This document shows positions 7,337 through 40,738 of a stretch of 64,000 bases of DNA, piece by piece. Position 1 is the first letter of the stretch. Every line of letters begins with the position of its first letter. Origin of the DNA: Streptomyces sp. A3M-1-3 (GTDB lineage: Bacteria > Actinomycetota > Actinomycetes > Streptomycetales > Streptomycetaceae); contig NZ_JANAVP010000001.1 in assembly GCF_024213665.1 (NCBI RefSeq), positions 310,001 through 374,000 of the forward strand, given 5' to 3'. The notes under the pieces are model-generated. The model was not told the origin of the DNA. It did not search any database and worked only from the letters and a program-made list of their open reading frames with translations. Made by a program: the position numbers and the translations under genes.

Positions 7337-9613
7337 TTGAGACCCACCCCCCATCGACGCGGCACTGCCGTCGGCGCGCTCGTCGCCGCCGCGGCCATGC
7401 TCGCCGTCGGCATACAGGCCGGCACTGCCACCGCCGACAACACCTCGGGCCGGGCACCCGCCGCCGCCAAGCCCAACCCCGGCGCCCTGCCCGCCAAGCT
7501 CACTCCCGCCCAGCGGGCGGCGCTCATCGCCGAGGCCAACGCCACCAAGGCGCAGACCGCGAAGGAACTCGGCCTCGGGGCCAAGGAGCGGCTCGTCGTC
7601 CGCGAGGTGACCCAGGACGTCGACGAGTCCACGCACACCTTCTACGAGCGCACCTACGACGGACTTCCCGTTCTCGGCGGTGACCTGACCGTCCATGAGA
7701 CCAAGTCCGGCCGCACCGAGTTCGTCAACCGGGCGAACACCAGGCAGATCAAGGTCGCCGACACCACCCCGGCCGTCGCCGCCGCGACCGCCGAGAAGCA
7801 GGCCCTTTCCGCCGCCAAGGCGGAGGGCTCCAAGGCGGCCGACGCCACCCGCGCCCCCCGCAAGGTCGTCTGGGCCGCGCAGGGCACGCCGGTCCTCGCG
7901 TACGAGACCGTCATCGGGGGCCTCCAGCACGACGGCACGCCCAACGAGCTGCACGTCATCACGAACGCCGAGACCGGCGCCAAGCTGTACGAGTACCAGG
8001 CGGTCGAGACCGGCACGGGCAACACCCAGTACAGCGGGCAGGTCACGCTGGGGACCTCGCAGTCGGGCAGCACGTACAACCTGACCGACGCCGGCCGCGG
8101 CAACCACAAGACGTACAACCTCAACAAGGCCACGTCCGGCACCGGGACGCTCTTCTCCGGCCCGGACGACATCTGGGGCAACGGCCAGCCGGCCGACCTG
8201 GAGACCGCGGGCGCCGACGCCCACTACGGCGCGGCACTGACCTGGGACTACTACAAGAACGTGCACGGCCGCAACGGCCTGCGCAACGACGGCGTGGCCC
8301 CCTACAGCCGGGTCCACTACGGCAACGCCTACGTCAACGCGTTCTGGCAGGACTCCTGCTTCTGCATGACGTACGGCGACGGAGCCGGCAACGCCAAGCC
8401 GCTGACCTCCATCGACGTGGCCGCCCACGAGATGACGCACGGCCTGACCTCGGTCACCGCCAAGCTCGTCTACAGCGGCGAGTCCGGCGGCCTCAACGAG
8501 GCCACCTCCGACATCTTCGCCGCGGCCGTGGAGTTCAACGCCAACAACTCCCAGGACGTCGGCGACTACCTGGTCGGCGAGAAGATCGACATCAACGGCA
8601 ACGGCACCCCGCTGCGCTACATGGACAAGCCCAGCCGCGACGGCAAGTCCAAGGACGCCTGGTACTCCGGCATCGGCTCGATCGACGTCCACTACTCCTC
8701 GGGCCCGGCCAACCACTGGTTCTACCTGGCCTCCGAAGGCAGCGGCCCGAAGGTCGTCAACGGTGTCTCCTACGACTCCCCGACCTCCGACGGTCTCCCG
8801 GTGACCCCGATCGGCCGCGCCGCCGCCGAGAAGATCTGGTTCCGGGCGCTGACCACCGGCCTGTTCACCTCCAACACCAACTACGCGGCCGCCCGTACGG
8901 CCACCCTCCAGGCCGCCGCCGACCTGTACGGCATGGGCTCGACGACGTACAACAACACCGCGAACGCGTGGGCCGGGATCAACGTCGGCAGCCGTATCGC
9001 GGACGGCGTCAGCGTCACCAACCCGGGCGCGCAGACCGGCACCGTCGGCACCGCCGCCAGCCTGCAGATCCAGGCCAGCAGCTCCAACGCGGGCGCGCTG
9101 AGCTACGCGGCGACCGGCCTCCCGGCCGGCCTGTCGATCAACGCCTCCACCGGTCTGATCTCCGGTACGCCGACCACGGCGGGCACCTCGAACACCACGG
9201 TCACCGTCACGGACTCGGCCAACAAGAGCGGTACGGCGTCCTTCGGCTGGACGATCAACCCGGTCGGCGGCGGCAACGTCTTCGAGAACACCACCGACGT
9301 CGCCATCCCCGACCTCGGCACCGGCACCTCGACGATCAACGTCAACCGCGCGGGCAACGCCCCGAGCGCCCTGAAGGTCGATGTCAACATCGTCCACACC
9401 TGGCGCGGTGACCTGGTCATCGACCTGCTGGCGCCGGACGGGACGGCCTACCGGCTGAAGAACTCCAGCGCCTCGGACTCCGTGGACAACGTGGTCGCGA
9501 CCTACACCGTCAACGCCTCCTCGGAGGTCGCGAGCGGTGCCTGGAAGCTGCGCGTGCAGGACGTGTACTCGCAGGACACGGGCTACATCAACAGCTGGAA
9601 GCTGACCTTCTGA
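7337..9613 (+). CDS. Secreted M4 (thermolysin-type) zinc metalloprotease with P domain
   Basis: TTG at 7337 is chosen because GAAGGAG (7324-7330) lies 6 bases upstream; it gives 758 residues. Residues 1-33 form a signal peptide (two Arg, hydrophobic core, cleavage near ATA-DN). A propeptide with FTP/PepSY-like inhibitor character follows. The catalytic domain has HEMTH at 364-368 and the third zinc ligand Glu388 in GGLNEATSD, exactly 24 residues after the first His as in thermolysin. Downstream come a putative Ig (He_PIG-like) module and a C-terminal P/Homo-B domain ending in NSWKLTF. The enzyme should be exported, self-processed and act on extracellular protein. It is followed by a strong bidirectional hairpin. 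Confidence 0.95.
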   Translation: MRPTPHRRGTAVGALVAAAAMLAVGIQAGTATADNTSGRAPAAAKPNPGALPAKLTPAQRAALIAEANATKAQTAKELGLGAKERLVVREVTQDVDESTHTFYERTYDGLPVLGGDLTVHETKSGRTEFVNRANTRQIKVADTTPAVAAATAEKQALSAAKAEGSKAADATRAPRKVVWAAQGTPVLAYETVIGGLQHDGTPNELHVITNAETGAKLYEYQAVETGTGNTQYSGQVTLGTSQSGSTYNLTDAGRGNHKTYNLNKATSGTGTLFSGPDDIWGNGQPADLETAGADAHYGAALTWDYYKNVHGRNGLRNDGVAPYSRVHYGNAYVNAFWQDSCFCMTYGDGAGNAKPLTSIDVAAHEMTHGLTSVTAKLVYSGESGGLNEATSDIFAAAVEFNANNSQDVGDYLVGEKIDINGNGTPLRYMDKPSRDGKSKDAWYSGIGSIDVHYSSGPANHWFYLASEGSGPKVVNGVSYDSPTSDGLPVTPIGRAAAEKIWFRALTTGLFTSNTNYAAARTATLQAAADLYGMGSTTYNNTANAWAGINVGSRIADGVSVTNPGAQTGTVGTAASLQIQASSSNAGALSYAATGLPAGLSINASTGLISGTPTTAGTSNTTVTVTDSANKSGTASFGWTINPVGGGNVFENTTDVAIPDLGTGTSTINVNRAGNAPSALKVDVNIVHTWRGDLVIDLLAPDGTAYRLKNSSASDSVDNVVATYTVNASSEVASGAWKLRVQDVYSQDTGYINSWKLTF

Positions 9614-9640
9614 TCCGGCAGGCCCCTCAGTAAAGAGACC

Positions 9641-9676
9641 CTGCCCGGGGGAACGGACCACCGTTCCCCCGGGCAG
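9641..9676. terminator. Bidirectional hairpin terminator between protease and glgP
   Basis: A perfect 16-bp stem (CTGCCCGGGGGAACGG and its complement) with an ACCA loop sits between two convergent genes, 28 bases after the protease stop and 23 bases before the glgP stop. Position and strength point to shared termination. Confidence 0.85.
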
Positions 9677-9698
9677 TTCCACGTCACCTGTCAGCGCG

Positions 9699-12335
9699 TC
9701 AGCGCATCAGTACGCCCGCCGCCTCCCCCGTCTCCTCGGAAGGCACGGCGACCAGGCCCAGATCGGCGCTCGTCGCCAGCAGCGGATGCGCGGGCAGGAT
9801 CCGGACGGTGTAGCCGAACGGGCCCGTACGGTCGAGGGCGAGCGGCCCCTCGTACAGCCAGCGGCCCTCCAGGTCGGGGCCGCCGGCCGGCTTGAGCGGG
9901 AAGGTCTGCCCGTCGGTGATGTGGTCCGCGGAGTCGACCCGGCCGGCGACGGCCTGGACCTCGACGTCCTCGGGCTGCAGCCCGTCGAGCGCCACCCGCA
10001 CCCGCAGGGCGAGCGTCGATCCGAGTTCGGCCGTGCCGTTGACGGCGGTCGCCGCGAGCGCCTCGACATGGTCGACGGCGACCCGCGGCCAGGCACCGCG
10101 TAGCCGGGCCTTCCACCCGGCCAGCTCGCGGGCGGTGTCCGGGTCCAGGGCGCGGTGGGCGCGCGCGGCCGGGGCGTACAGCCGCTCCACGTACTCCCGC
10201 ACCATGCGTCCGGCCAGCAGCTTCGGGCCGAGCGAGGCGAGGGTCTGGCGGACCATCTCGATCCAGCGCTCGGGCAGATCGCTGTCGCCGCGGTCGTAGA
10301 AGCGGGGGGCGACCCGCTGCTCGATCAGCTCGTACAGGGCGTGCGCCTCCAGGTCGTCGCGGCGGTCCTCGTCGGTCCCGACGGCGTCGGCTGTCGGGAT
10401 CGCCCAGCCGTAGTCGGGACCGAACCATTCGTCCCACCAGCCGTCCATGACGGACAGGTTGAGGCAGCCGTTGAGGGCGGCCTTCATTCCGCTGGTGCCG
10501 CAGGCCTCCAGCGGGCGCAGGGGGTTGTTCAGCCAGACATCGCATCCGGGGTACAGCTTCTGCGCCATCGCCATGCCGTAGTCGGGCAGGAAGACGATCC
10601 GGTGCCGGACCCGCGGGTCGTCGGCGAACCGCACCAGCTCGCGCACGAGCCGCTTGCCGCCGTCGTCCGCCGGATGCGCCTTGCCCGCGACGACGATCTG
10701 GACCGGCCGCGTCGGGTGGAGCAGCAGGTCCATCAGCCGGTCCTTGTCCCGGAGCATGAGCGTCAGCCGCTTGTACGAGGGGACGCGCCGCGCGAAGCCG
10801 ATGGTGAGGACGTCCGGGTCCAGCACCCCGTCGATCCAGCCGAGTTCGGCGGAGCCGGCGCCGCGCTGCCGCCAGGAGGCCCGGAGCCGGTCCCGTACCT
10901 CGTACACCAGCTGTTCGCGCAGTACCCGCCGCACGTCCCAGATCTCGCCGTCGGCGATGTCGGCGACCGCGTCCCAGCGCTGCGAGCCGCCGACCGAGAG
11001 GGCGTCCTCGGCCCGGCCCGCGCCGATCTGCCGGGCGCCGAGCCGGAAGACCTCGGGGGCCACCCAGGTGGGGGCGTGCACCCCGTTGGTGACGGAGGTG
11101 ATGGGGACCTCCGCCGGGTCGAAGCCGGGCCAGAGGCCGGCGAACATCTCCCGGCTGACGGCTCCGTGCAGGGTGGAGACGCCGTTGGCGCGCTGGGCGA
11201 GCCGCAGGCCCATCACCGCCATGTTGAACAGGTTCGGCTCCCCGCCGGGGTAGGTCTCCATGCCGAGCTGGAGGATCCGCTCGACGTCGACGCCCGGCAG
11301 CTCGCCGTCGTCGCCGAAGTGGTGGGCGACCAGTTCGCGGTCGAAGCGGTCGATGCCGGCGGGTACTGGGGTGTGCGTGGTGAACACGGTCCCGGCCCGC
11401 ACCGCCTCCAGTGCGGAGTCGAAATCCAGCCCTTCCCCGGAGAGTTCCCTGATCCGTTCCAGGCCGAGGAAGCCGGCATGGCCCTCGTTGGTGTGGAAGA
11501 CCTCGGGCGCGGCGTGGCCGGTCAGCCTGCAGTACGTACGCACGGCGCGGACACCCCCTATGCCGAGGAGCATCTCCTGCAGGAGCCGGTGTTCGCTGCC
11601 GCCGCCGTACAGCCGGTCGGTGACATCGCGCTCGCCGGGGTCGTTGTCCTCGACGTCCGAGTCGAGGAGGAGCAGCGGGACCCGGCCGACCCGCGCCTGC
11701 CAGATGTGGGCGCGCAGCGAACGGCCTCCGGGCAGGGCGAGTGAGACCCGGCTGGGGGTGCCGTCCTCCTCGCGGAGCAGGGAGACCGGCAGCTCGTTCG
11801 GGTCGAGTACGGGGTAGTGCTCCTGCTGCCAGCCGTCGCGGGACAGCGACTGGCGGAAGTAGCCGTGTCGGTAGAGCAGCCCGACGCCGATGAGGGGGGC
11901 GCCGAGGTCGCTGGCGGCCTTGAGGTGGTCGCCGGCGAGGATGCCGAGTCCACCGGAGTACTGGGGCAGTGCCGCGGTGATTCCGAACTCGGGCGAGAAG
12001 TAGGCGATGGCGGCGGGGAGTTCGGCGCCTGCCGCGTCCTGGGTCTGGTACCAGCGGCTGCCGCGCAGGTAGTCGTCCAGGTCGTCGGCGGCGGCGGTCA
12101 GTCTGCGCAGGAAGCGGCGGTCCTGCGCGAGGTCGCCCAGCCGTGCGGCGGGCACGGCTCCGAGCAGTCGTACGGGGTCGCCGCCCGCTTTCTGCCAGCC
12201 CTCGGGGTCGAGGGACTGGAAGAGTTCGCGGGTCTCTGCGTGCCAGGACCAGCGCAGGTTGCGCGCGAGGTCGCTGAGTGGTCGTAGGGGTTCCGGCAGG
12301 ACGGGGCGCACGGTGAATCGACGAATGGCCTTCAC
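9699..12335 (-). CDS. glgP: Alpha-glucan phosphorylase GlgP
   Basis: This 878-residue GT35 enzyme of the short bacterial/archaeal type releases glucose-1-phosphate from alpha-1,4-glucan. An N-terminal DUF3417-like segment (about 1-110, VLPEPLRPLSDLARNLRWSW) precedes the phosphorylase domain. The pyridoxal-phosphate lysine is Lys618 in GTSGMKAALNG. GTG at 12335 is chosen for the strong AAAGGTGG upstream. The gene is divergent from glgE across a 291-bp spacer and convergent with the protease gene. GlgP and GlgX are the degradative side of the glucan system encoded here. Confidence 0.96.
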   Translation of the reverse strand: MKAIRRFTVRPVLPEPLRPLSDLARNLRWSWHAETRELFQSLDPEGWQKAGGDPVRLLGAVPAARLGDLAQDRRFLRRLTAAADDLDDYLRGSRWYQTQDAAGAELPAAIAYFSPEFGITAALPQYSGGLGILAGDHLKAASDLGAPLIGVGLLYRHGYFRQSLSRDGWQQEHYPVLDPNELPVSLLREEDGTPSRVSLALPGGRSLRAHIWQARVGRVPLLLLDSDVEDNDPGERDVTDRLYGGGSEHRLLQEMLLGIGGVRAVRTYCRLTGHAAPEVFHTNEGHAGFLGLERIRELSGEGLDFDSALEAVRAGTVFTTHTPVPAGIDRFDRELVAHHFGDDGELPGVDVERILQLGMETYPGGEPNLFNMAVMGLRLAQRANGVSTLHGAVSREMFAGLWPGFDPAEVPITSVTNGVHAPTWVAPEVFRLGARQIGAGRAEDALSVGGSQRWDAVADIADGEIWDVRRVLREQLVYEVRDRLRASWRQRGAGSAELGWIDGVLDPDVLTIGFARRVPSYKRLTLMLRDKDRLMDLLLHPTRPVQIVVAGKAHPADDGGKRLVRELVRFADDPRVRHRIVFLPDYGMAMAQKLYPGCDVWLNNPLRPLEACGTSGMKAALNGCLNLSVMDGWWDEWFGPDYGWAIPTADAVGTDEDRRDDLEAHALYELIEQRVAPRFYDRGDSDLPERWIEMVRQTLASLGPKLLAGRMVREYVERLYAPAARAHRALDPDTARELAGWKARLRGAWPRVAVDHVEALAATAVNGTAELGSTLALRVRVALDGLQPEDVEVQAVAGRVDSADHITDGQTFPLKPAGGPDLEGRWLYEGPLALDRTGPFGYTVRILPAHPLLATSADLGLVAVPSEETGEAAGVLMR

Positions 12336-12442
12336 GTGTCCACCTTTGCAGGGGAAGTACGAATCTTCAGCGGACGCACCACGATGTGCACCCGGGCTTC
12401 ACCCCCAGACCGTAGCGGCGGCCGGTCGGCACAACCACGGCG

Positions 12443-12487
12443 CACGCAAGCAGCGGGGGGTTCTCATGCGCCCCCGCCGCTTGCGTG
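12443..12487. other. Strong hairpin in the glgP/glgE divergent spacer
   Basis: CACGCAAGC-A-GCGGGGG (12443-12459) pairs with CCCCCGC-C-GCTTGCGTG (12471-12487): a 17-bp stem with one A-C mismatch and an 11-base loop. Because the flanking genes diverge, a terminator is not required here; a leader structure for glgE or the end of a small RNA is possible. Confidence 0.6.
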
Positions 12488-12626
12488 AACCGTTACGCAC
12501 CAGTAGTTAACGAAGCACCGGATTTGGGCCCCGGAGAGCGGGGGAAGGCTCCTCCGGTACGAAACGAAGCGCAGCCTCATCGCACCCTGATTCCCGCCAC
12601 CCGAGTGAACGCGGACAGGAGCGGCC

Positions 12627-14713
12627 ATGCCCGGAGCCCGTCAGTCACCAACGGAGCAGCTAGAAAGAGGCAAACCTCCCCAACGTGACCAATCGGCCAC
12701 GCCCGCACCCGAGCCACCAGGTGATTCCATGATCGGTCGCATTCCTGTCCTGGACGTCCGTCCCCTCGTCGAATGTGGCCGAAGGCCCGCGAAGGCGGTG
12801 GTGGGTGAGGTCTTCCAGGTCACGGCGACCGTCTTCCGCGAGGGCCACGACGCGGTGGCCGCCAATGTCGTACTGCGCGATCCGGCGGGCCGGCCCGGCG
12901 ACTGGACGCCGATGCGCGAGCTCGCGCCGGGGACGGACCGGTGGGGGGCGGAGGTGGCAACGACCTCCGAGGGGCGCTGGACGTATGCCGTGGAGGCGTG
13001 GAGCGACCCGGTCGCCACCTGGCGGCACCACGCGCAGATCAAGATCCCGGCCGGTCTCGACACCGCGCTCGTCCTCGCTGAAGGCGCCGAGCTGTACGAG
13101 CGCGCGGCCGCCGGGGTGCCCAAGAGCGAGGGCCGTGAGGCCGTGCTCGCCGCGGTGGACGCGCTGCGCGACGAGGGCCGTCCGGCCGCCGCCCGGCTGG
13201 CCGCGGCGCTGGCCCCCGAGGCCACGGACGCGCTGGTGCGCCATCCGCTGCGCGAACTGGTCAGCTCCTCCCGCCCGCTGCCGCTGCTCGTCGAGCGTCG
13301 GCGCGCCCTGTTCGGCTCCTGGTACGAGCTGTTCCCGCGCTCCGAGGGCGCGGTGGTGAAGAAGGGGAAGCCGCCGGTCAGCGGCACGTTCCGGACCGCG
13401 GCCGAACGGCTGCCCGCGGTGGCCGCGATGGGCTTCGACGTGGTCTACCTCCCGCCCATCCACCCCATCGGGACCACGCACCGCAAGGGACCCAACAACA
13501 CGCTCTCCGCCCGGCGGCGGGACGTGGGGGTGCCGTGGGCGATCGGCTCGCCCGCCGGCGGCCACGACGCCGTACACCCGGACCTGGGCACGATCGAGGA
13601 CTTCGACGACTTCGTCGCCCGCGCCCGCGACCTGCGGATGGAGGTGGCGCTGGACTTCGCGCTGCAGTGCTCCCCCGACCACCCCTGGGTCGAGAAGCAC
13701 CCCGAGTGGTTCCACCACCGCGCCGACGGCACCGTCGCGTACGCCGAGAACCCGCCGAAGAAGTACCAGGACATCTACCCGATCGCGTTCGACCGGGACA
13801 TGCGGGGTCTGGTCGCCGAGACGCTGCGCGTGCTGCGTTTCTGGATGGGCCACGGGGTACGGATCTTCCGCGTCGACAATCCGCACACCAAGCCGGTGGT
13901 CTTCTGGGAGAAGGTGATCGCGGACATCGGCCGCACCGACCCCGATGTCGTCTTCCTGGCCGAGGCCTTCACCCGCCCCGCGATGATGCACGCCCTGGCG
14001 GCGACCGGCTTCCAGCAGTCGTACACGTACTTCACCTGGCGCAACTCCAAGCAGGAGCTGACCGGCTACCTCACCGAGCTGTCCGGCGACTCGGCCTCGT
14101 ACATGCGGCCCAACTTCTTCGTGAACACCCCGGACATCCTGCACGCCTACCTCCAGGAGGGCGGCCGTCCGGCCTTCGAGGTACGGGCGGTCCTCGCCGC
14201 CACCCTCTCCCCCAGCTGGGGCGTGTACGCCGGATACGAGCTGTGCGAGAACACCCCGGTGCGGGAGGGCAGCGAGGAGTACCTGGACTCGGAGAAGTAC
14301 CAACTGAGGCCCCGCGACTGGGAGTCGGCCGAGCGCGAGGGCCGGACCATCGCCCCGCTGATCACCGCGCTCAACCGGCTGCGGCGCCGCCACCCGGCAC
14401 TTCAGCAGCTGCGCGACATCCACTTCCACCACGCCGACAACGAGGCGGTGATCGCGTACTCGAAGAGGTCGGGTTCGAACACCGTTCTGGTGGTCGTCAA
14501 CCTCGACCCGCACCACACCCAGGAGGCGACGGTCTCGTTGGACATGCCGGATCTCGGCCTCGCGTGGCACGAGACCGTTCCGGTGCGCGACGAGCTCACC
14601 GGCGAGACCTACCACTGGGGCAGGACCAACTATGTGCGCCTCGAGCCGGGTGTCACGCCCGCGCACGTCATGGTCCTGCGACCGTCCCCGCCGATCGGAG
14701 GGTCACCCACATC

Positions 14714-14717
<4 letters not shown>
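12627..14717 (+). CDS. glgE: Maltose-1-phosphate maltosyltransferase GlgE
   Basis: This 696-residue GH13_3 enzyme transfers maltosyl units from alpha-maltose-1-phosphate to the non-reducing end of alpha-1,4-glucans, the polymerising step of the GlgE pathway. The nucleophile is Asp417 in [10 protein letters not shown] and the acid/base is Glu446 in LAEAFTRP; their 29-residue spacing matches the characterised S. coelicolor enzyme (Asp394/Glu423). ATG 12627 has AGGAG six bases upstream. ATG 12729 ([12 protein letters not shown]), where strong family similarity begins, is an alternative. The stop overlaps the treS start (ATGA), so translation is probably coupled. Confidence 0.97.
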
Positions 14718-16444
<1,727 letters not shown>

Positions 16445-37631: not shown

Positions 37632-37649
37632 CCCGCCCTGCACGTAATG

Positions 37650-37690
37650 CTGTGGGCGGCACCCCGATGATCCGGGGGCGCCGCCCACAG
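37650..37690. terminator. Terminator after pyk
   Basis: CTGTGGGCGGC (37650-37660) pairs perfectly with GCCGCCCACAG (37680-37690), with a further CCCCG/CGGGG inner pairing. Located just after the pyk stop. Confidence 0.85.
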
Positions 37691-37707
37691 CCACGTCTGC
37701 GCGCTGA

Positions 37708-37901
37708 TCACACGCCCGGCTGCCGCACTGCGTCGCGGGCGGCGGCACAGTACGCCCACACCGTCTTGCCGTACGGCCGCTCCGCCACTCCCCAGTCGAG
37801 TGCCAGCGCCTGGACGAGAAGCAGTCCGCGCCCGCTCTCGGCATCGTCGGCGGGCATGCAGGGGTGCGGCTGCGGACGCCGGGCGACGCAGGTGACGCAC
37901 G
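37708..37901 (-). pseudogene. C-terminal remnant of an anti-sigma-type ATP-binding protein
   Basis: The frame ends DDAESGRGLLLVQALALDWG, then GVAERPYGKTVWAYCA, which is the G-box and C-terminal strand of HATPase_c (RsbW-like) proteins common in Streptomyces. The N box and the first ~70 residues are missing; upstream the sequence becomes the 5' part of a DUF397 gene on the other strand. In intact modules an XRE gene and a DUF397 gene lie divergent from this ATPase, so a single deletion from inside the ATPase gene through the XRE gene explains the junction. Confidence 0.75.
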
Positions 37902-38107
37902 TCTCCCGGACCGATCTCAACGCCGCCGACTGGCGCAAGTCCAGCTACAGCAACACGCAGGGCGGAGAATGCGTCGAGGTCGCTGACGGCTTCCCCGGCG
38001 TGATGCCGGTGCGCGACAGCAAGAACCCCGAAGGTCCGGCACTGATGTTTCCCACCGACGCATGGGGCACCTTCATCAACAAGCTGAAGGCCGGCCGCCG
38101 ATTCTAA
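37892..38107 (+). CDS. DUF397 protein without its XRE partner
   Basis: GTG 37892 gives 71 residues containing LNAADWRKSSYSNTQGGEC and VMPVRDSKNPEGP, a complete DUF397 domain. The first residues (MTHVSR) and the start codon lie at the deletion junction, and no ribosome binding site is obvious, so it may not be expressed. It ends 8 bases before the convergent hemC stop. The usual coupled XRE regulator is absent. Confidence 0.65.
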   Translation: MTHVSRTDLNAADWRKSSYSNTQGGECVEVADGFPGVMPVRDSKNPEGPALMFPTDAWGTFINKLKAGRRF

Positions 38108-38115
38108 AACCTTGC

Positions 38116-39060
38116 TCAGTGCGCGATGTTGTCGATCAGCTCGCGAGCACCTTGACGTAGCAGCGCGACGGCGACCGAGGTTCCGAGTGTTGCCGGATCG
38201 AGCGGGCCGGCCCACTCGTGCGCGTTGAGGACCGTCTTGCCGTCCGAGGTGAAGACGCGGGCGCGTAGTGAGAGGTCGCCACTGCCTTCGGCCCGCGCGT
38301 AGCCGGCGATCGGCGAGTTGCAGTGGCCTTGGAGAACGTGGAGGAACATGCGCTCGGCGGTGGCCTCCCGGTGTGCGGCGGGGTCGCCAAGTGCGCTCAC
38401 GGCGTCGATGGTGGCGGTGTCGTCCTCGCGGCATTGCAAGGCGAGGATTCCGGCGCCGATCGGCGGGCACATCGTCTCCACCGACAGGATCTCGGTAATG
38501 GCGTCGGCTCGGTCGATGCGTTCCAGCCCGGATACCGCGAGGAGTAGCGCATCCGCCTCTCCCGCCTCCAGCTTCTCCAGGCGCCGGTTTGCGTTGCCGC
38601 GCATCGGGACGCATTCCAGGTGCGGGTGTGAGGCGGCGAGTTGCGCGATTCTGCGGACCGAGGACGTGCCGATGCGGGTACCCGCGGGCAGCTCGTCGAG
38701 GGTGAGGCCGCCGGTGTGGATCAGGGCGTCACGGATGTCGTCACGCTTGAGGAAGGCCGCGAATGTCGTGCCGGCCGGGAGAGGACGGTCCGCGGGAACG
38801 TCCTTGACGCAGTGCACCGCCAGATCGGCCTCGCCCGCCAGCAGAGCAGCATCCACTTCCTTGGTGAACGCGCCCTTCCCGCCCAGCCTCGCCAGATCGC
38901 CCATCCACCGGTCGCCGGAAGTGGTGACGGGCACGACCTCGGTACGGATGCCGGGATGGAGCGCGGCCAGCTCGGCGCGGACACGCTCCACCTGGGCCAG
39001 GGCCATGGGCGAAGACCTCGAAACAATGCGGATCAGCTCAGGCGCAGACATGCCGTCCAC
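38116..39060 (-). CDS. hemC: HemC-type hydroxymethylbilane synthase (paralogue in an accessory operon)
   Basis: The family enzyme polymerises four porphobilinogens to hydroxymethylbilane using a dipyrromethane cofactor. This 314-residue copy (GTG 39060; ATG 39051 also possible) keeps every key element I can check: IVSRSS (Arg), VHCVKDVP (Lys-Asp, catalytic Asp), [11 protein letters not shown] (double Arg), [11 protein letters not shown] (Arg pair) and the cofactor Cys247 in [12 protein letters not shown]. It lies 9 bases after a methyltransferase gene and downstream of a divergent HemB-like gene on the same strand. No hemA or hemD is present, so it is unlikely to be the housekeeping gene and more likely serves a specialised pathway. 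Confidence 0.93.
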
Positions 39061-39069
39061 AATAGAGCG

Positions 39070-39645
39070 TCAGATACGCGCTCCCACCATCAGACCCGAC
39101 GCCCATCTCAGCGGCGTGCCAAGCAGGTTGGAGACAGCGGGCACTCGTGCGAGAAAGGCGTCCACACGCGCCTGGTGGCCATCCGGCCATGTGTCCTGCG
39201 GCAACAAGTCGTCGACTACATACAGACCACCCGGCTCCAGCAGCTCGAGCAGATCCCCAAGGCGATGGAACTTCCCCGGCCGGCAGTCCACGTACGCGAG
39301 GGAGAAGCCAGGGCCGCTGTAGCCGTCGAGCCACGCATCCACGTCCGCCGTCTCGAAGGACACCCGGGCATCTCCGCTCAAATGCTTGGCGGCAACGGCC
39401 TGCACCTTGAGGTCGGCCTCGACACTCACCAGCTTGGATTCCGCGCTCATCCCGTGCAGCAGCCACGCCGCGCCGGCACCGACCCCGGTACCCAGCTCGA
39501 CCATCCGGCCGCCGGGCTTCGACGCGGCCAACGTGGCGAGGAGAGACCCGGTGCGAGCTTCACAGGACATCGCGAAACGGAGCCGGCCCGCGTCCGCCAG
39601 GATTGCTTCCAGCACGGCCGGCGTCACCCACGGGTTGTCATCCAC
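39070..39645 (-). CDS. Class I SAM-dependent methyltransferase (O-methyltransferase-like)
   Basis: This 191-residue protein has motif I VELGTGVGAGAAWLL (SAM glycine loop), the acidic end of strand 2 in VSVEADLKV, and AYVDCRPGKFHRL followed by GLYVVDDLLPQDTW, resembling Methyltransf_24/catechol O-methyltransferase-like enzymes. GTG 39645 overlaps the end of the HemB-like gene by eight bases, and the stop is 9 bases before hemC, so all three are probably co-translated. The substrate is unknown; a pyrrole or aminolevulinate-derived compound is an inference from the neighbours. Confidence 0.88.
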   Translation of the reverse strand: MDDNPWVTPAVLEAILADAGRLRFAMSCEARTGSLLATLAASKPGGRMVELGTGVGAGAAWLLHGMSAESKLVSVEADLKVQAVAAKHLSGDARVSFETADVDAWLDGYSGPGFSLAYVDCRPGKFHRLGDLLELLEPGGLYVVDDLLPQDTWPDGHQARVDAFLARVPAVSNLLGTPLRWASGLMVGARI

Positions 39646-40615
39646 GGCCGGCCACCAGGTGCTGGGCGACCAGCTCGGCCGCGAAGGTCAGGACTACGTC
39701 CGCACCCGCCCGCTTGAGCATCGCGTGATACTCCGTCATCCCCTCCGGTCCGAGCGCCAGCAGAGACGCCAACTCACCGGAAGTCGAGTACGCCACGAGG
39801 GGCACCTGCTGGTCCGCCCGGAGCCGGACCAGGACGTCCACTGCCGTCATCACCGGCTGGAGGGTCAGGGAGTCCGCACCTTCGGCGATCCACCGCCTGG
39901 CCTGGACGAGGGTGTCCCGGTCCGCGCGCCCGGGTTCGAGTTGGAGACCCCGACGGTGCCCGGCACGGGGATTGGTGCCCATGAGCTGCTTGAACGGCCC
40001 GTACAGGGTCGTGTGCAGTGCCAGGTTCGGATTCACGCCCACGTCGCGCAGCCCCGCCACATCCAACGCGTTCCTGACGGCCCGCACAGACCCGTCCAGC
40101 ATCGCCGTGGGCGAGATGACGTCCGCCCCGGCCTCGGCGTGCTGCGTGGCCATCTGCTCCATGAGTCGGAACGTGGCGTCCAGGTCGATCGCGCCTGCTG
40201 CATCGCGAAGCACGCACTGCCCGTGGTCAGTCCACGAGCAGCCACACACCTCCGTGGTCACCGCCATCTTGGGATCGACAGCCTTGACCGCCTCAATCCC
40301 GCGCACCATCCGATTCCCTGCGGCAATTGCGCCCGACGCACGCGCATCACGTTCGTGTCCGTACGCGAAGATCTTCACGCCGCGAATCCCCAGCGCTGCC
40401 CAGCGGTGGACGGTGGCGCCTACCTCGGCCAGCGTCACCGCGCCGGGCAGCGGCGCCTTCTCGGCATCGTCAGGCAGCACCAGGAGAGGGGCGGTCAGAT
40501 CCGTCACGGTGATGATCGGCCGCGCGTAGAGATCGCGTACCACAGCACGAGCCCGGAGTGAATTCACACCGTCAGGGCCAGGGGCCGGTAACGGGCCTTC
40601 GGTGAGTGTCGTCAT
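39638..40615 (-). CDS. HemB-like protein lacking both Schiff-base lysines
   Basis: ATG 40615 gives 325 residues, the normal length of porphobilinogen synthase (HemB), and the barrel aligns throughout. The zinc cysteines are kept (Cys124, Cys126, Cys134 in VCGCSWTDHGQC), as are DVISPTAMLDG and YGPF. However, the two active-site lysines that bind aminolevulinate (Lys195 and Lys247 in E. coli) correspond to Ala199 (LALHTTLYGPF) and Gln253 (LTLQPVMTAVD). Normal porphobilinogen synthesis is therefore improbable; a different zinc-dependent reaction or a binding role is more likely. It is the first gene of an operon with a methyltransferase and HemC; TTATAC about 35 bases upstream may be its -10 box. 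Confidence 0.92.
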   Translation of the reverse strand: MTTLTEGPLPAPGPDGVNSLRARAVVRDLYARPIITVTDLTAPLLVLPDDAEKAPLPGAVTLAEVGATVHRWAALGIRGVKIFAYGHERDARASGAIAAGNRMVRGIEAVKAVDPKMAVTTEVCGCSWTDHGQCVLRDAAGAIDLDATFRLMEQMATQHAEAGADVISPTAMLDGSVRAVRNALDVAGLRDVGVNPNLALHTTLYGPFKQLMGTNPRAGHRRGLQLEPGRADRDTLVQARRWIAEGADSLTLQPVMTAVDVLVRLRADQQVPLVAYSTSGELASLLALGPEGMTEYHAMLKRAGADVVLTFAAELVAQHLVAGRG

Positions 40616-40706
40616 GCTCCGAGTAGATACCAGCAGGGTGTCGGTATAACAGGGCGCGTTTGGGAGCGCACAGACGACGGCCTCGGCACGTAAGACGAAA
40701 ACAACT

Positions 40707-40738
40707 GTGGCCCGCACCGAGTGATCGGTGCGGGCCAC
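40707..40738. terminator. Terminator after the Pro-rich secreted protein gene
   Basis: GTGGCCCGCACCGA (40707-40720), loop GTGA, then its perfect complement (40725-40738). It lies 32 bases beyond the stop of the minus-strand gene ending at 40770 and upstream of the HemB-like promoter, insulating the two operons. Confidence 0.85.

Follow-up and report, generated by a model that had tools for sequence, protein, structure and literature searches.

Porphobilinogen synthase (HemB), as presented in PMC7242693, binds two molecules of 5-aminolevulinic acid (ALA) in Schiff-base linkage to two lysines. The same source describes hydroxymethylbilane synthase (HemC) as growing the tetrapyrrole chain on a cysteine-attached dipyrromethane cofactor, with a catalytic aspartate. 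Here we describe an operon in a 64,000-nt stretch of Streptomyces sp. A3M-1-3 DNA (contig NZ_JANAVP010000001.1, positions 310,001 to 374,000; this whole stretch is called the window) that encodes a HemB-like protein without either of these lysines (HemB*), a class I methyltransferase and a second type of hydroxymethylbilane synthase (HemC2). The operon is an accessory tetrapyrrole module alongside a complete housekeeping pathway. Its three genes, the trio, lie on the minus strand and are transcribed in the order HemB*, methyltransferase, HemC2; coordinates are collected in Table 1.

HemB* matches the family PF00490 with 196 bits and falls under the NCBIfam porphobilinogen-synthase cut-offs (198.7 vs. 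297 bits and 177.7 vs. 507 bits). In alignment, the housekeeping A-site strand 'AYTAKYSS' is replaced, at the cost of a single residue, by 'NPNLALHT'; at the P-site, the motif 'MVKP' has become 'TLQP'. The original prediction, made from the letters of the window alone, had spoken of a changed active site in the HemB-like protein; the change is more drastic than claimed, as both Schiff-base lysines are gone, and they are absent in all 20 HemB* sequences read. The P-site residue is Gln in the clade of the trio and Glu in the other HemB* clade. Given the two-lysine Schiff-base chemistry of porphobilinogen synthase, HemB* cannot act in the classical way. The cysteines of the zinc-site pattern of zinc-type enzymes (Cys124, Cys126 and Cys134) are invariant in 16 of 16 HemB*, and the housekeeping HemB of the host reads CLDEYTDHGHC (CxDx7C) in this region, with Asp where the second Cys would be.

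An unselected locus scan gave 81 HemB places that keep both lysines (80 distinct) and 61 that keep neither (20 distinct, since many loci repeat one gene); none had exactly one lysine, and 13 places were without coverage of both sites. A lysine scan over 87 places gave 58 with both, 23 with neither and 6 without coverage of both sites. At the same time, the lysine-less proteins have a lysine of their own at position 81, which was present in 16 of 16 HemB* in the multiple alignment and in 20 of 20 when L129, L130, L044 and L045 were added by reading. Pairwise alignment of the 20 lysine-less rows gave Lys at this position in 18, Ala in one and no coverage in one, and among the 80 distinct lysine-containing HemB it was Met (58), Ile (18), Val (2), Leu (1) or Ser (1), never Lys. 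For the multiple alignment, the contrast set consisted of 24 lysine-containing HemB, 17 of them picked by a pattern of which the P-site lysine is itself a part, which makes the lysine contrast in that alignment partly circular. Lys81 lies within the predicted strand 79-84, two residues ahead of Phe83, which is common to all rows aligned with housekeeping HemB.

The predicted structure of HemB* (mean predicted local distance difference test score 86.5, predicted template modelling score 0.85) shows the TIM-barrel HemB fold and has solved porphobilinogen synthases as its best matches, with Z 41 vs. Z 20 for the next fold; for porphobilinogen synthase 3obk, VIA-align superposed the predicted model with an rmsd of 2.6 over 312 residues at 26% identity. 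A HemB tree, among the checks proposed at the outset, was built from 14 HemB* rows and 22 rows of other HemB; in it HemB* formed a separate clade on one side of a branch with 100/100 support. Median ratios of nonsynonymous to synonymous substitution (dN/dS) were 0.215 for HemB* (nine sequences, L039 taken from codon 9), 0.279 for the methyltransferase and 0.153 for HemC, values that are rough as dS is near 1. Judged from these sequences, the HemB* clade is under purifying selection.

The trio recurs in 10 other genomes, nine of Streptomyces and one of an unclassified actinobacterium (Actinobacteria bacterium OV450), including G066, G057 and G173 (locus L042), and thus co-occurs elsewhere, as the original prediction required. 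The identities of its HemB-like, methyltransferase and HemC genes, also part of that prediction, are borne out by family profile matches, and the predicted 8-nt overlap of the HemB* and methyltransferase genes is exact and the same in 11 of 11 trios. The 9-base gap that was to follow rests on a GTG start at 39060; with the ATG at 39051 that is common to the trios, methyltransferase and HemC are separated by 18 bases (17-18 nt in 11 of 11 trios). The flanks of the trio differ between most loci and are shared by L035 and L038 and by L036, L037 and L044.

Beyond Streptomyces, HemB* was detected in eight of 297 genomes of a second actinomycete family, with at least 331 bits vs. at most 234 bits for the next match. 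In a class-wide sample of 394 genomes, with few candidates scored per genome, G000, G173 and G429 alone stood out, and in a further family of 35 genomes no HemB* was found at E ≤ 1e-76, a search with no positive control that shows little. All 20 HemB* loci (11 trios, L046 and eight in the second family), which were gathered through HemB rather than HemC searches, adjoin a HemC. The two genes overlap, lie in line, have a NUDIX gene between them or are convergent; at L046 the pair is truncated and HemC is without its N-terminal part. Some HemC partners are closer to that of the trio, whereas others (L050, L126, L127) are of a more canonical type, a split that rests on few outgroups in a HemC tree whose L046 row is to be disregarded. 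As there are two types of partner, the HemB*-HemC partnership may have arisen more than once.

Several of these loci lie in mobile contexts. One HemB*-HemC pair is carried by phiM2 of Streptomonospora litoralis (G890), which PMC8448680 describes as a prophage also present as an episome. At L046, in Streptomyces genome G069, the short HemB* copy is less than 2 kb from a phage-type integrase gene, and the L128 locus is near replication-relaxation and conjugation-coupling proteins. Among viral contigs, 113 stretches matched the search pattern, none of which was confirmed as a relative; among phage records, HemB was matched in nine and HemC in 10 (L140, L141 and L142 were examined). Plasmid records gave 661 matches, and HemB* was found in one (H1) of nine examined. 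We also observed convergent hemB and hemC genes at 962-2930 of the conjugative plasmid pRltCC275eA of Rhizobium brockwellii (L138), where HemB keeps the P-site lysine motif and the very divergent HemC has HCLKD as in HemC2.

In genome G829, HemB* and HemC are clustered with a glutamyl-tRNA reductase (471 bits, above cut-off), a HemL-like aminotransferase that scores below the HemL cut-offs, a major facilitator superfamily (MFS) transporter and an uncharacterised protein. Although known from one genome, this gene group gives the best indication that a dedicated biosynthetic cluster exists. Two Streptomyces loci were recorded separately. In L049 (G015:C1:5905000-5924999), at 9555-15517, an extra HemB that groups with lysine-containing HemB in the tree lies beside a homologue of glutamyl-tRNA reductase and a gene that looks aminotransferase-like by eye, and is possibly another accessory ALA or pyrrole cluster. 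In L048 (G058:C1:7172000-7191999), at 9365-15111, there is a second hem cluster (by eye hemB, hemC, hemA and a HemE-like gene) in a genome with another HemB match.

The HemC protein of the trio scores 327.9 bits against TIGR00212 (cut-off 164), above the equivalog cut-off, with Pfam domains PF01379 and PF03900. It had been predicted to be competent, which stands insofar as the catalytic Asp84 and the cofactor-binding Cys244 are kept (each in 40 of 40 HemC2 and 19 of 19 housekeeping HemC in the alignment columns), and needs qualifying insofar as three positions are altered. These are Cys81 (38 of 40 HemC2), before the catalytic KD, vs. Ser in 19 of 19 housekeeping HemC; Ala200 of the GQG motif (38 of 40) vs. 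Gln (19 of 19); and His243 (39 of 40), just ahead of the cofactor Cys, vs. Gly (18 of 19). Positions 81 and 200 we take to line the active site in E. coli HemC. By its residues, HemC2 may work in the classical way.

HemC2 is far more widespread than the trio. In 295 Streptomyces genomes, 201 were matched at E ≤ 1e-72, of which 188 reached 1e-147 or better and the remaining 13 did not; four of the 188 are trio genomes, and a second HemC outside the trio was found in 184 of 291 non-trio Streptomyces (63%). With HemC2 solo in most Streptomyces sampled, the rare part of the trio is the HemB*/methyltransferase pair. Neither partner was present at 16 solo HemC2 loci (L213-L228) or at L200, and no remnants of them beyond chance matches were seen near 20 solo HemC loci. 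The neighbours of solo HemC2 vary between strain groups, with several loci in recurring neighbourhoods (clusters C1, C2, C3, C5 and C6). An additional solo HemC2 was found in none of 11 trio genomes (four of four in the 295-genome set and seven of seven others lack it; other copies are at most 56% identical), a count in which related genomes figure more than once. Among the solo copies, the HemCs of the trios are not a single clade (approximately unbiased test, p 0.0007), and the HemC of the window is nearest to solo copies (93% identity to that of G123). Because trio and solo proteins are intermixed, HemB* and the methyltransferase look like gains to, or losses from, a HemC2 module.

The methyltransferase matches PF13578 (Methyltransf_24) with 31.3 bits, above cut-off, and has profile matches to solved O-methyltransferases and catechol O-methyltransferase (COMT) in the PDB, although similarity to O-methyltransferase family 3 and COMT is weak. 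Asp120, Asp145 and Asp146 are invariant in 11 of 11 sequences; acidic residues of such kind presumably serve metal binding in COMT. The gene is present in all 11 trios, four of them among 392 Streptomyces genomes. Solo relatives, 46-58% identical and two of them partial, occur in 22 of the 392, and in the 12 contexts read of these 22 (L102-L113 among them) there was no HemB or HemC homologue and no partner common to most.

That the trio is accessory follows from the rest of the genome. A search for a second hemB and hemC found one further copy of each, both on contig C35, so the trio genes are not the housekeeping copies. There, as had been foreseen, the hem genes form a set that reads by eye as a hemA-hemC-hemD-hemB cluster, the genes besides hemB and hemC being named by eye. 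All 13 carriers that have genome handles (the host and 12 others) retain a HemB and a HemC of the housekeeping type. The window itself was predicted to hold no other haem gene, and tblastn at E ≤ 1e-3 with HemA, CobA-HemD, HemE, HemL, HemD, HemB and HemC probes matched this operon alone. Around the operon, Rfam and tRNA scans were empty; PHROGs gave no match for any of seven proteins, and PADLOC gave none for HemB or HemC and no known anti-phage defence model, with a weak match of the methyltransferase to mads_2 (35 bits).

The locus was first taken for a deletion scar between pyk and an envelope gene. Comparison shows an insertion instead: these two genes are ~80-710 bases apart in 16 of 19 other Streptomyces loci (pyk was outside the stretch covered in the remaining three, and the distance at L247 was taken from a sequence match) vs. 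3,138 bases in the window. The insertion lies approximately between the hairpin beside pyk and that beside the convergent envelope gene, with no tRNA or clear terminal repeat found around the trio. The GC content at third codon positions (GC3) of the trio is 0.80-0.82 vs. a window median of 0.935, consistent with acquisition from another source. As a separate observation, a DUF397 gene and the apparent end of an ATPase-like reading frame (37660-38107) sit in the insertion with the trio, and DUF397-type genes are present in several other loci too (neighbour cluster C3). DUF397-type genes are common in such genomes.

Table 1. Features of the accessory operon and its surroundings (positions in the window).
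Feature	Position	Strand	Basis or remark
HemB-like gene, HemB* (325 aa)	39638..40615	-	PBG-synthase (porphobilinogen synthase) fold without either Schiff-base lysine
HemB* Lys81 codon, in 'GVKIFA'	40373..40375	-	alignment
HemB* Cys124, Cys126, Cys134 (CxCx7C zinc-site pattern)	40214..40246	-	alignment
HemB* residues 195-200 'NPNLAL', in place of the A-site Schiff-base lysine region	40016..40033	-	alignment
HemB* Gln253 codon, at the P-site Schiff-base lysine	39857..39859	-	alignment
Class I methyltransferase (191 aa), Methyltransf_24	39070..39645	-	kin to O-methyltransferase family 3 and COMT
HemC2, second-type hydroxymethylbilane synthase (311 aa)	38116..39051	-	
HemC2 Asp84 codon (catalytic Asp, HCVKD)	38800..38802	-	alignment
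HemC2 Cys244 codon (dipyrromethane-cofactor Cys, LQGHC), after HemC2-specific His243	38320..38322	-	alignment
Approximate insertion, between pyk hairpin and convergent envelope-gene hairpin	37692..40706	.	
Hairpin beside pyk	37649-37691		
Hairpin beside envelope gene	40707-40738		
DUF397 gene next to the trio, within the insertion	37856..38107	+	

Our preferred reading, held tentatively and about evenly poised between right and wrong, is an accessory pathway that starts from porphobilinogen or ALA and yields a pyrrole or bilane that is modified, probably by O-methylation. Porphobilinogen would be supplied by the housekeeping HemB, and in one relative (G829) ALA may come from the dedicated glutamyl-tRNA reductase and HemL-like enzymes. 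HemB* would bind a porphobilinogen-like or ALA-like substrate through its kept zinc and carboxylate-binding residues and alter it without the classical double Schiff base, HemC2 would deaminate and join pyrrole units on its dipyrromethane cofactor, and the COMT-like enzyme would O-methylate the substrate or product, the outcome being a specialised methylated pyrrole or linear bilane. The original prediction had pointed to such a methylated pyrrole or tetrapyrrole; specialisation is supported by the lysine-less yet selected HemB clade, the HemC linkage at every locus found and the G829 cluster, the methylated product itself being putative. A bolder version, which we consider unlikely, is that HemB* has its reactive lysine relocated to another strand (Lys81) and produces some pyrrole that is not porphobilinogen, which the altered HemC2 links into a new bilane and the methyltransferase caps; such a branch would leave the trunk before uroporphyrinogen III and travel on prophages, integrative elements and insertions.

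Several results weigh against a dedicated side pathway. Next to the Streptomyces trio there is no recurring gene for a transporter, a regulator or ALA synthesis, and the trio's methyltransferase did not turn up alongside the HemB*-HemC pairs of the second actinomycete family. HemB* is frame-broken in two of 11 trios (L044, L045), and in L039 its codon 8 is a stop, leaving eight of 11 unbroken, and it is truncated in L046, all of which would make it dispensable; the breaks in L044, L045 and L039 may be assembly errors. HemC2 stands alone in most Streptomyces sampled and so has no need of HemB* or the methyltransferase, and a HemB that lacks the lysines may have a binding or regulatory role without catalysis. 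The strongest rival is that HemB* is a pseudoenzyme that binds porphobilinogen or HemC2 without chemistry (channelling, sensing or restraining), with HemC2 as a further hydroxymethylbilane synthase that would, under some condition, add to the ordinary supply of tetrapyrroles. We hold this to be rather unlikely, even though it would account for the loss of both lysines while the zinc-site and other pocket residues stay, for the wide occurrence of HemC2 alone and for the mutual exclusion of the HemC of the trio and its solo counterpart in all 11 trio genomes, which may mean that the two do the same job. The common new Lys81 and the clade-specific pattern suggest chemistry, a COMT-like methyltransferase accompanies HemB* in every one of the 11 trios, and a glutamyl-tRNA reductase, a HemL-like aminotransferase and an exporter belong to the G829 cluster; the side pathway is thus favoured over the pseudoenzyme, and the explanations that follow are less likely still.

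Resistance is commonly brought about by mobile DNA that carries a further copy of the target enzyme, and a spare HemB and HemC could guard against a haem-synthesis inhibitor such as alaremycin, as alaremycin 2 binds HemB in PDB 2woq, judging by the entry title. This duplicate for self-resistance or tolerance, also raised in the original prediction, is improbable, since a HemB without either catalytic lysine is unlikely to make porphobilinogen in place of an inhibited enzyme, and the methyltransferase would be left unexplained. That the genes are decaying duplicates without function we judge quite improbable: the broken or early-stopped HemB* genes (L044, L045, L039), the truncation of both genes in L046 and the low GC3 would fit, but eight of 11 trios are unbroken, dN/dS is low, the clade has a shared pattern, and low GC3 fits recent transfer as well. 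Zur-controlled HemB paralogues are known in other bacteria; a zinc-sparing haem-synthesis backup of this kind is hardly credible here, as HemB* keeps the zinc-type Cys motif and it is the host's housekeeping HemB that has Asp for the second Cys, the reverse of what a zinc-sparing role predicts, and no Zur-box-like site with three or fewer mismatches to the consensus was found in the window.

The extra gene set with a lysine-less HemB, which we read as part of a side pathway, suggests that tetrapyrrole metabolism has a side branch not described before, and the clade tied to an altered HemC is a small, testable system. A wider question is why about 63% of the Streptomyces sampled have a second, solo HemC. 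In the open-licence literature of PubMed Central, no description was found of the trio, a lysine-less HemB or the second Streptomyces HemC. The fold and families are known, and the conserved lysine-less HemB clade tied to HemC appears new.

Compared with known systems, HemB* is like porphobilinogen synthase (PF00490) in keeping the CxCx7C zinc-site pattern and the SGE motif, and unlike it in having neither Schiff-base lysine, Gln or Glu at the P-site and the new Lys81. HemC2 resembles hydroxymethylbilane synthase (TIGR00212) in its score above the equivalog cut-off and in the kept catalytic Asp and cofactor Cys, but differs from the housekeeping enzyme at positions 81, 200 and 243. The tolyporphin cluster reportedly holds extra hem genes, and to our knowledge no lysine-less HemB is among them. 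As presented in PMC10459692, that cluster of a cyanobacterium is, like the pathway proposed for the trio, devoted to a tetrapyrrole natural product.

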